Source of the DNA: Firmicutes bacterium HGW-Firmicutes-1
Lineage (GTDB): Bacteria; Bacillota; Clostridia; Lachnospirales; Vallitaleaceae
DNA: 64,000 nt
Direction: 5' to 3'
Assembly (NCBI GenBank): GCA_002841625.1
Contig: PHAG01000002.1
Location: forward strand, 186,001-250,000
The notes under the pieces: model-generated
Database searches by the model: none
Told to the model about the DNA's origin: nothing
Seen by the model: the letters and a program-made list of their open reading frames with translations, nothing else
Made by a program: the position numbers and the translations under genes
Shown here: positions 3,850 through 53,220 of the stretch, one piece after another
Layout: each line of letters begins with the position of its first letter
Position numbering within the stretch: the stretch's first letter is position 1

Positions 3850-4023
3850 ATGTATCAAAAACAATTTGCAAACCCTGATTGTTTATATGGAAAAATGGAC
3901 CCTCAATTTCAATTAGCACGTGCGTATGTTCCATTTCAAGTATTAGGTGATGTTTATGGCCCGGCCGAAGCACTTTGTAAAGGAACATTATTCCCAAAAT
4001 TATATATGCCCTATCATTTTTAA
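3850..4023 (+). CDS. cotJA: Spore coat protein CotJA
   Basis: Small spore-coat associated protein of 57 residues, first gene of cotJABC. Family hallmarks are LARAYVPFQ in the middle and FPKLYMPY at the end. AAGGAGAG precedes the start. In Bacillus the CotJ proteins are made in the mother cell and incorporated into the inner coat. Two bases after its stop a 64-bp palindromic repeat has inserted between it and cotJB, stretching the spacing to about 96 bases in what is normally a tight operon. Confidence 0.9.
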   Translation: MYQKQFANPDCLYGKMDPQFQLARAYVPFQVLGDVYGPAEALCKGTLFPKLYMPYHF

Positions 4024-4025
4024 CC

Positions 4026-4089
4026 GATGTGCAAGCGAAGCTTGCATTCGGTTACGAAACCGTAGCGAATGCGTTGGTTTTGTAACATT
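4026..4089. repeat. Palindromic dispersed repeat, copy A
   Basis: 64-bp sequence matching 53157-53220 at 60 of 64 positions. It contains nested inverted repeats: GCAAGC/GCTTGC, GCATTCG/CGAATGC and CGGTT/AACCG. It sits in the cotJA-cotJB gap, just before the cotJB ribosome-binding site. It accounts for a spurious open frame across 3947-4147. Confidence 0.85.
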
Positions 4090-4119
4090 AACAAGAAATA
4101 ATTCGTGGAGGTATTATAA

Positions 4120-4397: not shown

Positions 4398-4655
4398 ATG
4401 TGGATTTATGAAAAGAAGCTCGAATACCCAGTTAGGGTAGATACCTGTGATCCAGCTTTAGCGTCATTGATATTAGAACAATTTGGAGGACCAGATGGTG
4501 AACTATCTGCAGGTATTCGTTACCTCAGTCAACGTTGGACGATGCCTACTGATCAAGCAAAGGGTATTTTAACAGATATAGGAACTGAAGAATTAGCCCC
4601 AAGAGGTTATCCGTTATATCACCAGATTAATTTTCAACCAGGCTTGATATTATAG
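4398..4655 (+). pseudogene. cotJC: cotJC 5' part, interrupted by prophage
   Basis: N-terminal portion of the manganese-catalase-like coat protein CotJC: MWIYEKKLEYPVRV, QFGGPDGELSAGIRYLSQR and ILTDIGTEELA (67 residues). After GTEELA the family continues AHLEM..., but here the frame runs 18 residues into phage sequence and stops at 4655. The expected second metal-site histidine (AHLEM) is absent. The matching C-terminal part is at 50800-51126, on the far side of the prophage. As it stands the product is truncated and should not be a catalase-fold protein. Confidence 0.92.
4578..4620 (+). other. attL, left prophage end
   Basis: Host cotJC sequence runs to about 4597 (GAATTAGC). From 4599 rightward the sequence (CCAAGAGGTTATCCG...) is the inverted counterpart of the sequence ending at 50798 at the other end (17 of 20 positions). 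This is the expected P' arm of a serine-integrase attP. The shared dinucleotide GC at 4596-4597 and 50798-50799 is a candidate core; exact crossover is uncertain. Confidence 0.65.
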
Positions 4656-6167
4656 GATATATAGTAAGTGCAAAATTATCTGATCGACATCTTTTAATAT
4701 AACATTTTTTTGATATGGATCATCTAAAGTTCGATACACTTCTAAGATTGTTTGAATTTTTGGAATAATACTCTTTTTATTATTTTCACGTTGTTCATCC
4801 ATTTCTATACTTTTATTAATTATTTCAAGATCTTGCTTTATCTGTTTTATACGTTCAGAAATAATTTTAGAACGATCTAAAAAAGTATCTATGCTATAAA
4901 CTTCACGTTCAAGCAGGTCATGAAGATTACTCAATTGTAACTCTAAATTTTTTAATTCAACATCAAACTTTAAAATAGCCTTTCTCTTAATATCTAATTC
5001 AATGTTATTTTCACTTTCTGAATTTTCCCATTTTAACTTATAGGCATTTAATATCTCTTCAAGTCCTTGCAATACTCGATCCTCAACGTAATTGAGGGGA
5101 GAGGATACTGTGCTGCATGATGGCTCAGAACACATCAAATAGTCAAATTTGTAAGATGTGTGATTCAAAGGTCTTCTAACCATTTTTCTGCCGCATTTAC
5201 CACAAATAATAAGTCCTGAAAGGGGATTCATAACCTTTTTTCGGTGAGGTATGGGCTGAGATGGATTATGAGACATATACTCTTGAGCTAATTGCCAGAT
5301 AGATTCGTCAATTATTGCATGATGAATTCCCTTTGTGAGAATATAGTCTGTTTTTCGTGGACGTTCTTTAACCATATGACCATCAACCATTTTTTTAACA
5401 GATGGTCGCCAGTTCCATCTAATCATACCGTTGTATACCGGATTAATCAAAATATCTCTAATAGTTGATTGTGTCCATATTTTTCCAGTCTTGGACATTA
5501 CCTTCATTTCATTCAGTTTACGTGCAATTAAAGATACACCTATTCTTTTTGGAGCACCATTTGATTCAATCTCTCCATAAGTATATAATTTATAAATAAG
5601 CTGAACTATTTCAGCTTCATTTTCTATTGGTTCTAAGGTGAAGCCCTTTCCATGTTCTATCTTTATACGCGTATAGCCATAAGGAGGACGATTACCTACA
5701 TATTTTCCTTCTTTAACTGATTCCAACCTTCCGCGTTGAAGACGTCTATTAATTGTCTTGAATTCACGCCTAGACATAAAAAGACCAAACTCAAAGTACT
5801 CCTCATCATATTCATTATTTGGATCATAAGTTTTCATTGGAGTAATGATTTGTGTATTTGAGTATTTAAATGTTTGTGCGACTAAGCCTTGATCAATAGT
5901 ATCACCACGAGCTAAACGCTCGACTTCCATTACGAGTACACCATCCCAGATGCTTTGTTCAACTTCACTTAAAAGTTTTTGCATCTCGGGTCTTGCTATA
6001 ATGGTTTCACCAGATACAACTTCTCTAAATATTTTTGTAACAGGCTTGTTAAGACGTCTAGAAAGCTCAATAAGAACCCTTTCGTGGCGAGCTAGAGTTT
6101 CACCTTCGCCATGTGCTTCTGCATCCATATCGGCACGAGATTTTCTTAAATACATACAGTATTGCAT
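4650..6167 (-). CDS. Large serine recombinase (prophage integrase)
   Basis: 505 residues. The N-terminal resolvase domain has the nucleophile in YLRKSR (Ser10) and the VERLARGDT arginines (84, 87). A recombinase domain follows (about 160-265), then a zinc ribbon with CGKC (322, 325) and C346/C351, and a C-terminal coiled coil (about 375-470). Family members integrate phages by attP x attB crossover and excise them with a directionality factor; SpoIVCA of the skin element is one. The gene reads toward attL and ends within about 55 bases of the junction. Its GAGGTG site lies 5 bases before the ATG. I saw no clear sigma-E promoter. Confidence 0.95.
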   Translation of the reverse strand: MQYCMYLRKSRADMDAEAHGEGETLARHERVLIELSRRLNKPVTKIFREVVSGETIIARPEMQKLLSEVEQSIWDGVLVMEVERLARGDTIDQGLVAQTFKYSNTQIITPMKTYDPNNEYDEEYFEFGLFMSRREFKTINRRLQRGRLESVKEGKYVGNRPPYGYTRIKIEHGKGFTLEPIENEAEIVQLIYKLYTYGEIESNGAPKRIGVSLIARKLNEMKVMSKTGKIWTQSTIRDILINPVYNGMIRWNWRPSVKKMVDGHMVKERPRKTDYILTKGIHHAIIDESIWQLAQEYMSHNPSQPIPHRKKVMNPLSGLIICGKCGRKMVRRPLNHTSYKFDYLMCSEPSCSTVSSPLNYVEDRVLQGLEEILNAYKLKWENSESENNIELDIKRKAILKFDVELKNLELQLSNLHDLLEREVYSIDTFLDRSKIISERIKQIKQDLEIINKSIEMDEQRENNKKSIIPKIQTILEVYRTLDDPYQKNVILKDVDQIILHLLYIL

Positions 6168-9477: not shown

Positions 9478-9506
9478 TTGACACGAACAAACGTTTGTGA
9501 TATAAT
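9478..9506 (+). promoter_or_regulatory. Sigma-A promoter with LexA-box-like operator
   Basis: TTGACA (9478-9483), a 17-base spacer and TATAAT (9501-9506): a consensus promoter. The spacer holds CGAACAAACGTTTG, matching 13 of 14 positions of the Bacillus LexA consensus CGAACRNRYGTTYC, with a perfect palindrome ACAAACGTTTGT. LexA binding there would block RNA polymerase, making the peptidase gene DNA-damage inducible. Confidence 0.75.
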
Positions 9507-9578: not shown

Positions 9579-10562
9579 ATGGACATAACAAGATTAAAAG
9601 AGAGTGTATACAGAACTTGTGACAAAGTACTTAATAAATATTATGAAAAAGCAAAAAAGTTTAATCAAAAGCAATACTTATATTCGTTTTATTCAACATT
9701 AGTTTTGTTTGGATCTGGTTTTTTTTATGCTTTAATTGGAGTTCAAATCAATAATGAAATTTATCAGAATATGATAATTAACGCTGGGGTAGTAAATATA
9801 ACTTTATCAATTATCATATTCAGTTTTTCTCATTTTATAAGAATTACTATAAATGGTGTAATTAATACGTTAACTCATTTTACTAATAATTTAACTTCAG
9901 AGTGTGTAGCGATCCATGAAGCTGGTCATGTTATATTGACAGAGTTTCATTTTCCCTTTTCTATAAAATCAATAAAATTAACAAGAGGTATATTCCATTG
10001 TTGGGATGAATATATGAATCCAGGATATATAATTCAAAATATTAATTTTATGAAATGGAGATATAATTTTAACGCTTTATCAAAAAACGATATTGAAAAG
10101 CAAATTGCGATTTCCCTTGCTGGTTATATTAATAATCAAATTTACTTATTACAGGATCTTGATCAAATACAAAGAAGCATTATTGATATTATATATTTTA
10201 GCGATAAGTCACAACTTGATTCGGACTTTTTATTTGTTAGAAACCAACTTCCGGTTATATCTCGTTATGAAGATTTAGAAAAAATCATTGAAAGTACATA
10301 TAAAATACTAAATAGAAATATCAAATCCACAAATGCATTAGTTAGTGTAATAACAAAGAAAAAAAAGGTTAAACACAGTAAAACAATAAAAATATTGAAA
10401 ACAACCATTTCCTCAGAAGACTTAAATTTAAAAAAACAATATAAAAAAATTTATCCTAAACTACTATATCTATTCGTTATTTTTGCAGAATGGATGCACG
10501 TTGAAAATACTGTTGATATACTTAGGGAAACAGTTTTAACACTTAGGTTAAATAATTACTAA
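9579..10562 (+). CDS. Membrane-anchored M41 (FtsH-type) peptidase-like protein
   Basis: 327 residues. Two hydrophobic segments (about 37-56 and 66-88) precede a zinc-peptidase motif, AIHEAGHVIL (HEAGH at 113-117), as in FtsH. Further on, IAISLAGYINNQI (176-188) resembles the FtsH segment after the active site, and an Asp near 214-216 could be the third ligand. There is no AAA ATPase domain, so it is a peptidase without an unfoldase. The ribosome-binding site is strong (GGGGGAGGG). It is transcribed from a LexA-box promoter and converges on the prophage repressor gene. A role in cleaving the repressor or a membrane target on SOS induction is inference. Confidence 0.7.
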   Translation: MDITRLKESVYRTCDKVLNKYYEKAKKFNQKQYLYSFYSTLVLFGSGFFYALIGVQINNEIYQNMIINAGVVNITLSIIIFSFSHFIRITINGVINTLTHFTNNLTSECVAIHEAGHVILTEFHFPFSIKSIKLTRGIFHCWDEYMNPGYIIQNINFMKWRYNFNALSKNDIEKQIAISLAGYINNQIYLLQDLDQIQRSIIDIIYFSDKSQLDSDFLFVRNQLPVISRYEDLEKIIESTYKILNRNIKSTNALVSVITKKKKVKHSKTIKILKTTISSEDLNLKKQYKKIYPKLLYLFVIFAEWMHVENTVDILRETVLTLRLNNY

Positions 10563-10620: not shown

Positions 10621-11031
10621 TTATTCTTCTGTTTTCTTTCTTAATTCTTCCATTTTTTCAGCATTTTCTAATGCGCTTTTTATGTCACTGAATAGTTCAA
10701 ATTGAGTTTGTCTTTGCATTTCCTTGCCATTAAATATATTGATATCATTGTTTTTAAGGATATCTAATAATTGATAAAATTTTTCTTTCAAATCTTCTTT
10801 ATTATCTTCGCTATTCATTTGTAATGATTGACCGTCGATACTTCTACCCAAAAGATAATCTACTGAAACTCCAAAAAAATTAGCTAGTTGTTGTAATGTA
10901 TCACTATTAGGTTCAGTTCTTCCTGTTTCCCAACTTCCAATGGTTTGCTGAGATACATTTATCATTTGACTTAGTTCTCTTTGGCTTAAATCTCTTTTTT
11001 CGCGTTCCTGTTTTAATCTGTTTTTTAGCAT
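10621..11031 (-). CDS. XRE-family prophage repressor
   Basis: 136 residues: an N-terminal helix-turn-helix of the XRE/CI type (LSQRELSQMINVSQQTIGSWETGRTEPNS, residues 15-43) followed by an acidic helical tail without the Ala-Gly/Ser-Lys self-cleavage signature of LexA/CI. The absence of that domain means RecA-stimulated autocleavage is unlikely, so induction needs another route. Divergent from the Cro-like gene, with operators between them. Confidence 0.88.
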   Translation of the reverse strand: MLKNRLKQEREKRDLSQRELSQMINVSQQTIGSWETGRTEPNSDTLQQLANFFGVSVDYLLGRSIDGQSLQMNSEDNKEDLKEKFYQLLDILKNNDINIFNGKEMQRQTQFELFSDIKSALENAEKMEELRKKTEE

Positions 11032-11111: not shown

Positions 11112-11140
11112 TTGACAACTACATTATGTTGTTATATAAT
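11112..11140 (+). promoter_or_regulatory. Early rightward promoter with operator in spacer
   Basis: TTGACA (11112-11117), a 17-base spacer and TATAAT (11135-11140). The spacer includes CTACA-TTA-TGTTG, nearly the same palindrome as in the repressor promoter. Further half sites (CATAACATAG) follow. This looks like the lytic early promoter controlled by repressor and Cro. Confidence 0.7.
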
Positions 11141-11511: not shown

Positions 11512-11697
11512 ATGCTTATGCCAAGTCCACCTGTAATAGGTAACGTAGTAAAAGAATTTATGATAGGCAATACTACTATAAAAATTTGCGACGATTCTTA
11601 TAGGGATAAAACTAAGGAAGATGTTGACAGAATTCTAATGAATATATCCCGAAATGCTTATGAGTTTTTGAATGCACAAGCGAATAAGCCTAGTTAA
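11512..11697 (+). CDS. Small conserved phage protein
   Basis: 61 residues: an N-terminal strand pair (FMIGNTTIKICDDSYRD) and a C-terminal helix (KEDVDRILMNISRNAYEFLNAQ). It has a GGGAGG site upstream. Proteins of this look are common after cro in Clostridia prophages, but no function is known to me. Confidence 0.6.
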   Translation: MLMPSPPVIGNVVKEFMIGNTTIKICDDSYRDKTKEDVDRILMNISRNAYEFLNAQANKPS

Positions 11698-21959: not shown

Positions 21960-22544
21960 ATGATATTGAATACTGTACAGCCAATAAGAGACTTTGAACT
22001 TATAGAAGACATTGGAGAGTTTTTAAGGTTATCATCATATAGAAATTTTGTGCTTTGGTCAACAGGAATATATGCTCCCATAAGGATATCTGATATATTA
22101 GATTGGAAAGTACGCGATGTTCGTAACAAGGATTTCGTATCTATACGTGAGAAGAAAACTGGCAATGAACAACTATTCCCAATCAATAGTGAATTGAGAA
22201 AAATACTGGATCACTATATAGATGGGAAAAAAGATTATGAATATTTGTTTGCTTCAAGACAAAAAAATGGTAAAGGTATATACGGACCAATTTCAAGACA
22301 GCAAGCATATTATATCCTCAACGTAGCTGCAAAGTATTTTAAACTACAAAATATTGGGTGTCATACGATGAGAAAGACTTTTGGATATCATTATTATCAA
22401 CAAACTGGAGATATTATTACATTACAAGAGATTTATGGCCATTCTCATTTTAGTATTACAAAGAGATATATTGGTTTAACTCAAGAGATGAAAAATAAGG
22501 CTGTAAAAGATTTTAAATATAAGAAGTTAAGGAAATCAAGTTGA
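21960..22544 (+). CDS. Catalytic-domain-only tyrosine recombinase
   Basis: 194 residues comprising only the catalytic domain: R42 (APIRISDIL), K in REKKTGN, HTMR (His135, Arg138), GHSH (His161) and Tyr170. The usual N-terminal core-binding domain is absent. The prophage already has a serine integrase, so this enzyme more likely resolves multimers, acts in replication or processes packaging substrates. Similar short recombinases sit before terminase in other Clostridia phages. Confidence 0.8.
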   Translation: MILNTVQPIRDFELIEDIGEFLRLSSYRNFVLWSTGIYAPIRISDILDWKVRDVRNKDFVSIREKKTGNEQLFPINSELRKILDHYIDGKKDYEYLFASRQKNGKGIYGPISRQQAYYILNVAAKYFKLQNIGCHTMRKTFGYHYYQQTGDIITLQEIYGHSHFSITKRYIGLTQEMKNKAVKDFKYKKLRKSS

Positions 22545-50324: not shown

Positions 50325-50362
50325 TAAAAGACCCTACAATGTATTATTCATAGTAGGGTTTT
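50325..50362. terminator. Bidirectional terminator
   Basis: ACCCTAC / GTAGGGT stem with flanking A and T runs, lying between the convergent YHYH gene and the 87-residue gene. Confidence 0.6.
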
Positions 50363-50367
50363 TAAAA

Positions 50368-50631
50368 TTACATTTTAAATAGAATCCATTTACATGTATC
50401 AAGCTCATATTTGATTTCACAGAGCTTTGGCTTTTCATTTAGTCTTATTTCACATTCAAATTTCATCATCTTATTTCCTGCTAATTTTTCGAGATCCGCT
50501 TTTATTACTCTTAATATTTCATAGATTTGAGTGTCACCATTTTTGCCGAGTATCTTAAATTTCAAAGGCTGCATTATTCCAAGTTCATCAGTTTTGCAAA
50601 TCATTTCAATTTTCTTACTTATTGTCTTCAA
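50368..50631 (-). CDS. 87-residue protein at attR, candidate excision factor
   Basis: Small, slightly basic, beta-rich (MQPLKFKILGKNGDTQIYEILRVI, MMKFECEIRLNEKPKLCEIKYELDTCKWILFKM). I do not recognise a named family, though proteins of this look are frequent in Clostridia. It lies within 170 bases of attR, is read leftward into the prophage, has AGGAGGTG before its start and a promoter with a LexA-box. Serine-integrase directionality factors are small, diverse and often near the att site; that role is inference. Confidence 0.55.
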   Translation of the reverse strand: MKTISKKIEMICKTDELGIMQPLKFKILGKNGDTQIYEILRVIKADLEKLAGNKMMKFECEIRLNEKPKLCEIKYELDTCKWILFKM

Positions 50632-50652
50632 TTACATGCACCTCCTAAGTCA

Positions 50653-50681
50653 ATAGTAATACGAACGAACGTTTGTGTCAA
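50653..50681 (-). promoter_or_regulatory. Leftward sigma-A promoter with LexA-box-like operator
   Basis: Read leftward: TTGACA, 17-base spacer, TACTAT. On the plus strand the spacer contains CGAACGAACGTTTG, 13 of 14 positions of the Bacillus LexA consensus and nearly identical to the box at 9484-9497. Both sites occupy the same place between -35 and -10. Confidence 0.75.
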
Positions 50682-50764
50682 TCTAATTGTTGTTGGTTTA
50701 AAATAAAAATTAATACTATTATATTAGGAAGGAACGCAAATTTATTGGAATATTATGCATGAAT

Positions 50765-50815
50765 TATATGCTAATCACTATTACGTATAACATCTTGGCA
50801 CAGAAGAAGATATGA
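50765..50815 (+). other. attR, right prophage end
   Basis: The phage side ends ...ATTACGTATAACATCTTGG (to 50798), inverted relative to 4599-4618. cotJC coding similarity resumes at about 50800 (ACAGAAGAAGAT). Candidate core GC at 50798-50799. Confidence 0.65.
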
Positions 50816-51126
50816 TAAAAGGCACACCATTTGCTGCACATTTTGCGAATCATGGAAGAAGTCCATTCCCACATGATGCAGCGGGAGTTCCGTGGACAGC
50901 AGCCTTTATCAATTCTAAAGATGATCCAGTAACGGATTTAACTGAAAATATGGCAGCAGAACAAAAGGCTAGAACAACATATGAACATTTAATTAAATTA
51001 AGTGATGACCCTGGAGTTATTGACACACTTAGATTTTTACGTGAAAGAGAAGTAGTTCACTTTCAAAGATTTGGCGAAACGCTACGTATTGTTGAAGATT
51101 ATCAAAATACGAAGAAGTTTTATTAA
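50800..51126 (+). pseudogene. cotJC: cotJC 3' part, separated by prophage
   Basis: Reads TEEDMIKGTPFAAHFANHGRSPFPHDAAGVPWTAAFI, then DLTENMAAEQKARTTYEHL and FLREREVVHFQRFGE, the C-terminal half of CotJC with the last metal-binding Glu/His region intact. No ribosome-binding site precedes the first ATG (50812), so it is not expressed alone. The open, conserved frame suggests selection until recently. Together the two parts give about 175 residues versus about 189 for the family. Confidence 0.9.
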
Positions 51127-53086: not shown

Positions 53087-53220
53087 ATGGAAGAAGTACC
53101 CCGCTTCTTAAGTGGGGGAACCAATTCCAACATCTGTGGGGGTTCAAGCCCCCACAGATGTGCAAGCGGAGCTTGCATTCTGTTACGAAACCGTAGCGAA
53201 TGCGGAGGTTTTGTAACATT
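53087..53220. repeat. Palindromic dispersed repeat, copy B, with hairpin array
   Basis: 53157-53220 matches 4026-4089 at 60 of 64. Upstream of the shared part are CATCTGTGGGGG / CCCCCACAGATG (53131-53160, perfect 12-bp stem) and a CCCC-CTT / AAG-GGGG hairpin (about 53099-53117). The row of hairpins recalls ends of IS200/IS605-type elements; no transposase is present. Confidence 0.75.

Follow-up and report, generated by a model that had tools for sequence, protein, structure and literature searches.

The window, i.e., the whole 64,000-nucleotide stretch of DNA analyzed here, contains a prophage that splits the host cotJC gene, which encodes an Mn catalase of the spore coat (PF05067). Both parts of the interrupted gene match this family, the 5' part at 4398..4592 (+) and the 3' part at 50809..51126 (+). 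Comparison of the junctions places a GAAGAA core at each end of the element: at 4587..4592 (+), within the N-terminal part of cotJC (attL), and at 50803..50808 (+), followed by the C-terminal part (attR). A large serine recombinase, the phage integrase, is encoded at 4650..6167 (-) (phrog_95, E 1e-96). PGXM01000015.1, a contig from a different MAG, matches the window without a difference over the 5,000 bases compared, and it begins and ends exactly on the GAAGAA core, a possible assembler outcome when integrated and excised forms coexist. This contig (loci L051 and L056) has been assigned to a "Tenericutes" MAG, which probably reflects erroneous binning. A search of viral contigs for an attP-like pattern returned no match.

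A same-genus genome has an intact cotJC, and by comparison the window is without 60 bp (20 codons) beside attR. Likewise, the 3' end of the integrase gene (about 4686) is without 49 bp that are present in the PGXM01000015.1 copy, and the last residues of the integrase are changed; both absences may be real deletions or assembly faults. A short repeat-like sequence at 4021-4093, absent from the same-genus genome, lies between cotJB and a gene that we take to be cotJA, and a stretch near 53160 (about 53160-53200) is similar to it.

The first-pass annotation had located a small gene at attR, and the split cotJC with GAAGAA at both junctions confirms that position. The gene is an 87-codon open reading frame at 50368..50631 (-) with AGGAGG upstream and a TTG start that it has in common with a paralogue in the host genome and with the closest phage copy. 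Compared with that phage copy, pN is 0.23 and pS 0.74, so the amino-acid sites of the protein are constrained. A scan for promoters and terminators found no terminator, although inspection of the sequence shows an inverted repeat at about 50328-50362.

Two promoters with LexA-type sites in the spacer

The promoter of the 87-aa gene, read from the sequence and recovered by the promoter scan, occupies 50653..50681 (-). It consists of a -35 element TTGACA (50681-50676) and a -10 element TACTAT (50658-50653) separated by a 17-bp spacer, with a match to consensus at 10 of 12 positions, and the LexA-type site CGAACGAACGTTTG lies within the spacer at 50662..50675 by motif match, all as first described. 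Promoter-like matches are common on their own (6 in the scanned stretch compared with 4.9 in shuffles); this one is the top scorer among the 6. The same design recurs 41 kb away, as had also been claimed, at a gene for a 327-aa membrane protein (9579..10562, +), where the twin site CGAACAAACGTTTG (9484..9497) sits between TTGACA (9478-9483) and TATAAT (9501-9506). This second protein carries a HEAGH motif and is a putative zinc peptidase by motif only; it had no match in Pfam or PHROG. Next to it, at 10621..11031 (-), lies the gene for a CI-type HTH repressor (HTH_3, E 6e-20), and no peptidase domain is among the repressor's Pfam matches.

These two promoters hold the only exact CGAACNNNNGTTYG sites in the window. 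Among 400 windows simulated with a first-order Markov model, 3 contained two exact boxes and 1 contained two boxes within such promoters, so that a pair of such boxed promoters would not be expected to arise by chance. When one mismatch is allowed, the window has 6 matches compared with a shuffle mean of 1.87, and 1 of 100 shuffles reaches 6.

Across the whole genome the motif by itself is not enriched, with 6 exact CGAACNNNNGTTYG matches compared with 13 for the reversed pattern, and the looser pattern GAACNNNNGTTY was unable to define a regulon (181 sites, compared with 265 for the reversed control). The argument for SOS control therefore rests on where the site lies, i.e., in the spacer between the -35 and -10 elements. 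Two of the six exact places are those in the prophage; the others are at recA, at dinB, inside a coding sequence, and between genes with no evident SOS role. The host recA promoter reads TTGACA-CAGAACAAGGGTTCGTA-TATAAT and that of host dinB TTTACG-CAAACAAATGTTCGTGT-TATAAT, each with a LexA-type site inside the spacer; at recA, the site in the spacer is a looser match, and the exact one follows immediately downstream. Host recA was recognized by its sequence and host dinB by Pfam (IMS domains). Because the recA and dinB promoters bear LexA-type sites at the same place, SOS control of the 87-aa gene through its predicted LexA site is well supported, as it is for the peptidase gene, and the suggestion of two matched LexA-type promoters in the prophage is upheld by an architecture that equals that of host recA and dinB.

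The 87-aa family is linked to dinB

The host paralogue of the 87-aa protein is 53% identical (E 7e-28) and starts 18 bp downstream of a polymerase gene whose identity as dinB the Pfam IMS domains confirm. Homologues occur in 22 of 59 genomes comprising the window's own and its relatives, and in 35 of 299 drawn across the phylum. dinB adjoins 19 of the 29 homologue loci in the first set and 27 of the 30 loci fetched across the phylum, the host paralogue being counted in both. Judged by eye from printed positions, LexA-type sites lie upstream in 16 of the 19 and 22 of the 27 dinB-linked loci. The other 10 of the 29 have no dinB within about 1.5 kb, and in 5 of these a LexA-type site is found no more than about 65 bp upstream. 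The window copy is likewise solo, as a search of the window for dinB gave no match better than E 2.

In the family alignment (A1), P22, C60, and W82 are invariant and G18, F25, G52, E72, and L84 are conserved at 90% or more; the window protein aligns over its full length and has these conserved residues. A1 comprises 25 of the 29 relative-genome loci (without L006, L007, L011, and L029), the window, and L052-L054, and it was too diverse to serve as query for the collection scan. The family file excludes L075, which is the same place as L002, along with L086 and L093. The neighboring polymerases also have a common anatomy: 23 of 25 printed DinB ends have what we read as a RecA-NT-like stretch and a tail whose last residues are P, any, M/V, S/T, S. 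The exceptions are L103, which is without the tail, and L007, whose row is a fused frame.

In L007 (1498-2934, -), dinB and the 87-aa gene form a single frame of 478 codons with the DinB core followed by the 87-aa domain. This is the order of ImuB with ImuB-C and the sole such case in the 65 loci scanned. Since the near relatives L005 and L006 have separate genes, the fusion would reflect either a deletion that removed the DinB tail or an assembly fault.

Relationship to ImuB-C

In an hmmscan search with an E cut-off of 0.1, PF20114 (DUF6504) matched no member of the family (0/29); of the 35 phylum genomes that have the 87-aa family, 1 has a PF20114 match and 34 have none. The tie to this domain, which we take to be ImuB-C, therefore rests on profile-profile comparison, and we call the 87-aa family a relative rather than a member of ImuB-C. 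A control match of PF20114 in Caulobacter agrees with the equation of DUF6504 and ImuB-C. Aligned with hhalign to 18 DUF6504 sequences (from 20 fetched loci, with L120 and L123 left out as contig starts), the family gave a probability of 92.9 and an E-value of 5e-8, which holds for a single pair, over 76 columns and the full length. Four random halves of the family gave probabilities of 91-94, and a smaller alignment (A4: the window, 11 phage rows, and 3 bacterial rows) gave 92. For controls, the reversed and ten column-shuffled alignments reached at most 0.19 and three unrelated families at most 0.17.

Section 7 of PMC3765255 describes ImuB-C as having a C-terminal Trp, beta-strands, and standalone copies beside DinB. 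The 87-aa family likewise has an invariant C-terminal Trp and is mainly beta, with an AlphaFold (AF2) model of the window protein at pLDDT 93.5 and six strands. Among solved structures, no clear resemblance to this model was found (best Z 6.9, cystatin-like), and ImuB-C itself is reported to be without a clear structural match (PMC12926913, section 22). In the viral fold library, one protein matched the model clearly, the uncharacterized siphovirus protein A0A8S5PG70 (E 4e-7), and a sequence search of the PDB with the family profile gave none at E up to 1. Taken together with the profile alignment, the C-terminal Trp and the beta-strands suggest that the 87-aa family is a relative that probably works like ImuB-C.

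Other identities were considered and set aside. Terminase_3C and LARA fell below the cut-off (E 0.1-0.2); the PHROG matches, phrog_7157 for the window protein (E 4e-4) and phrog_13501 for another member, are to families without function and are uninformative; and a reading as a defense gene was dropped after PADLOC gave a single marginal match (E 0.03).

Phage-borne copies

Scans of viral contigs recovered 11 further phage-borne relatives of the 87-aa protein, and a collection labeled "phages" contained none. No dinB was found near these relatives in the stretches examined. A LexA-type site lies within 450 bp upstream of 8 of the 10 testable copies and within 60 bp of 5 (L136, with its gene at a contig edge, and L004, a partial match, were left out); counted by length, there are 8 sites in 4.5 kb of upstream sequence compared with 5 in 90 kb elsewhere.

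In the tree of the family, which has few columns, many unresolved forks, and bootstrap values that had not settled, the window copy groups with a phage copy (99/99) rather than with the host's paralogue, and the phage-borne relatives fall into clades of their own. The 14 phage rows require 5 label changes, of which at least 2 are forced by well-supported branches; phages therefore probably acquired the 87-aa gene on more than one occasion and have retained it since. No PF07508 recombinase was detected in the 11 further records of phage-borne relatives (0/11), most of which are fragments, and 7 of them had tyrosine integrase matches. This count calls for caution, as L003, a fragment of the phage in the window, was also without a serine recombinase match and had a tyrosine match at about window 22080-22480. 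In the window itself, a 194-aa open reading frame lies at 21960-22544, where the PF00589 tyrosine-recombinase match of the L003 record falls.

A 61-aa early gene as candidate directionality factor

Opposite the repressor, a consensus promoter read from the sequence (TTGACA-17-TATAAT; 11112..11140, +) points toward the early genes on the cro side. Behind it and a cro-like gene lies a 61-aa gene (11512..11697, +), which, as part of the cro-side operon, would be made on induction. We regard its product, rather than the 87-aa protein, as the stronger candidate for the integrase's directionality factor, and we give roughly even odds to the proposal that it is made upon removal of the repressor and binds the integrase for attL x attR recombination.

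The proposal derives from co-occurrence with the integrase. With antisense frames set aside, the window reading frames outside the structural genes that are common to the five phages with the closest integrases are the integrase (5/5), the 61-aa frame (5/5), and the repressor (4/5). One of these phages, G357, shares with the prophage only the integrase, the repressor, the 61-aa gene, and one other frame; another, G358, shares four other frames, weakly. The 61-aa family is present in 14 of 16 records with related integrases, the misses being L064, a 1.6-kb fragment, and L067. Conversely, 21 of the 32 loci recovered by the 61-aa profile encode a large serine recombinase; among loci that extend 3 kb or more on that side the count is 21 of 25, and among those that extend 4.5 kb or more it is 15 of 16. 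The two sets overlap, since four of the 32 loci belong to records among the 16, and the 32 include several near-duplicates (the alignment A7 comprises 19 of the 32, near-duplicates left out). Furthermore, the linkage could reflect inheritance of the immunity region as a block, given the repressor relatives in four of the five phages, and use of the repressor as a linkage control yielded one locus only.

A tyrosine-integrase profile, which recovered 7 of 7 left-out seeds, gave a match in 10 of the 32 loci, and 5 of these 10 contain a serine recombinase too. Each match is located some 6-9 kb downstream, within a frame of 183-211 codons (one frame is cut by the locus end). These frames resemble the 21960-22544 gene of the window and were therefore, by judgement, not counted as integrase.

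The structural comparison is suggestive only. The model of the 61-aa protein (pLDDT 81.7, pTM 0.42) gave 43 listed Foldseek matches at E up to 10, and among the 54 chains that were re-aligned, the first was a chain of 9dxd, a complex of a serine integrase with its RDF (Z 2.8, rmsd 4.8, 53 residues aligned). Its place at the head of the ranking would fit an RDF role, but with a Foldseek E of 3.9 and a Z below 8 the similarity falls short of significance. A PDB sequence search with the 61-aa profile returned 27 weak partial matches, the best at E 0.003 to a 204-residue chain and many to NADH dehydrogenase subunits, which are taken as chance. The "phages" collection held one relative of the 61-aa protein.

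Proposed function of the 87-aa protein

We propose that the 87-aa gene encodes an SOS-inducible orphan accessory subunit of the host Y-family (Pol IV/DinB) polymerase, related to ImuB-C and carried as phage cargo at the attR end, and we assign this reading a probability of roughly 0.62. After DNA damage, LexA would leave its predicted site in the promoter spacer, and the 87-aa protein would be produced alongside RecA, DinB, and the DinB subunit encoded by the host. The next step would be docking on host DinB, which has the RecA-binding-like motif and the conserved C-terminal tail, and the phage protein may thereby alter the amount or fidelity of damaged-DNA copying during prophage induction, perhaps protecting or mutating phage DNA. 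Against this stand the position of the window gene, which is not beside a polymerase, and the 10 of 29 loci with no dinB nearby. Distant copies also appear to lie near att in the two closest integrase relatives, an arrangement that linkage to the integrase would explain as well.

By extension, we tentatively suggest, at somewhat less than even odds, that clostridial temperate phages carry orphan LexA-timed subunits without a polymerase as a stable lineage, retuning host DinB-RecA at induction in the phage's favor.

In a wider and plausible circuit, the SOS-boxed putative peptidase would disable the repressor, the early operon, including the 61-aa protein, would then be expressed, and the phage would excise; meanwhile, the 87-aa subunit would act on the host polymerase. 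The 327-aa protein, with its HEAGH motif and SOS box, is a possible antirepressor peptidase.

Three other accounts of the 87-aa protein were weighed. It could be a modulator by which the phage, in competition with the host subunit, reduces translesion synthesis instead of raising it. Its orphan state, its similarity to the host subunit, and their expected co-induction would all suit such a role, but no sequence feature was found that tells a helper from a competitor, and we consider a competitor unlikely. A passenger without present function is a little less likely still. Deletions at the integrase 3' end and on the cotJC side of attR in the assembly would accord with decay, but the gene itself retains an intact frame, a promoter, a ribosome site, and constrained amino-acid sites, and the prophage end that holds it is identical in two other contigs over 5,000 bases, the comparison having covered the first 5,000 bases of each.

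The first-pass annotation had cast the 87-aa product as an SOS-controlled directionality factor of the serine recombinase, and this is very improbable in light of relatives that are mostly dinB neighbors (the nearest host relative directly downstream of dinB), a profile that aligns with ImuB-C, a homologue in only 2 of the 16 related-integrase records where such a factor should follow its integrase, the 0/11 among other phage records noted above (many of the records being fragments), and the far better co-variation of the unrelated 61-aa gene with the integrase. In its favor are the location at attR with its own SOS promoter and the small size of known factors, which can be damage-inducible (e.g., SprB, 58 aa). 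As for the conservation of gene-att linkage in related prophages, the two records with a homologue are those with the closest integrases (60%), and both distant copies are positioned consistent with a site beside att (about 0.5 kb from the integrase gene; opposite contig end). Such placement fits a cargo slot at the attR end as well as it fits linkage to the integrase.

Should the accessory-subunit reading be correct, solo, SOS-driven phage copies with sites placed as in recA would offer a small system in which to study what the subunit does and why a phage brings the subunit only. Directionality factors are hard to find by sequence. They are useful for reversible integration tools, and the 61-aa gene is a concrete, cheaply testable candidate for a group of large serine integrases.

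Comparison with known systems

The closest parallel is the standalone ImuB-C encoded beside Pol IV/DinB. Like it, the 87-aa protein is small, all-beta, and SOS-linked, has an invariant C-terminal Trp, and belongs to a family found beside a Y-family polymerase. Unlike it, the window copy is phage-borne, has no adjacent polymerase gene, and has its own SOS promoter, and the family does not score with PF20114 (0/29). Coupling of ImuB-C to the YqjH polymerases of Clostridia is already published (PMC6511836, section 17), and PolY-ImuB-C associations are known more widely (PMC12926913, section 21). Comparative studies have identified standalone partners of Y-family polymerases of the ImuB-C type, which, as far as we have seen, are little characterized. 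Our literature search, which included the phage passages of PMC12926913 and drew further background from PMC4191935, PMC5025042, PMC11222575, and PMC12122855, found no report of solo phage-borne copies.

The arrangement also recalls YqjX/YolD and UmuD', described as small SOS-controlled subunits of a polymerase with a RecA-NT motif and a conserved tail. According to PMC6511836, this anatomy is associated with polymerases whose partners are RecA and a small subunit, and most YqjH homologues without a tie to YolD have no such tails. The 87-aa family differs in having no YolD Pfam match, and the ImuB-C barrel is described as differing from the SH3 barrel of YolD/UmuD' (PMC12926913, section 22).

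Finally, the element as a whole resembles others that interrupt sporulation genes, as cotJC is interrupted here much as spsM is by SPbeta and sigK by skin. SprB of SPbeta, which is described as induced by mitomycin C, and CD1234 of skin-Cd are likewise small proteins of elements that interrupt a sporulation gene and encode a large serine recombinase. What sets the 87-aa protein apart from them is the dinB linkage of its relatives and its lack of co-variation with the integrase; the 61-aa protein is the better fit to this comparison. phi027 of Clostridioides difficile also integrates at a gene for a CotJC-like Mn catalase; that phage lies beside the CotJC-like gene, whereas the prophage here lies inside cotJC and splits it.
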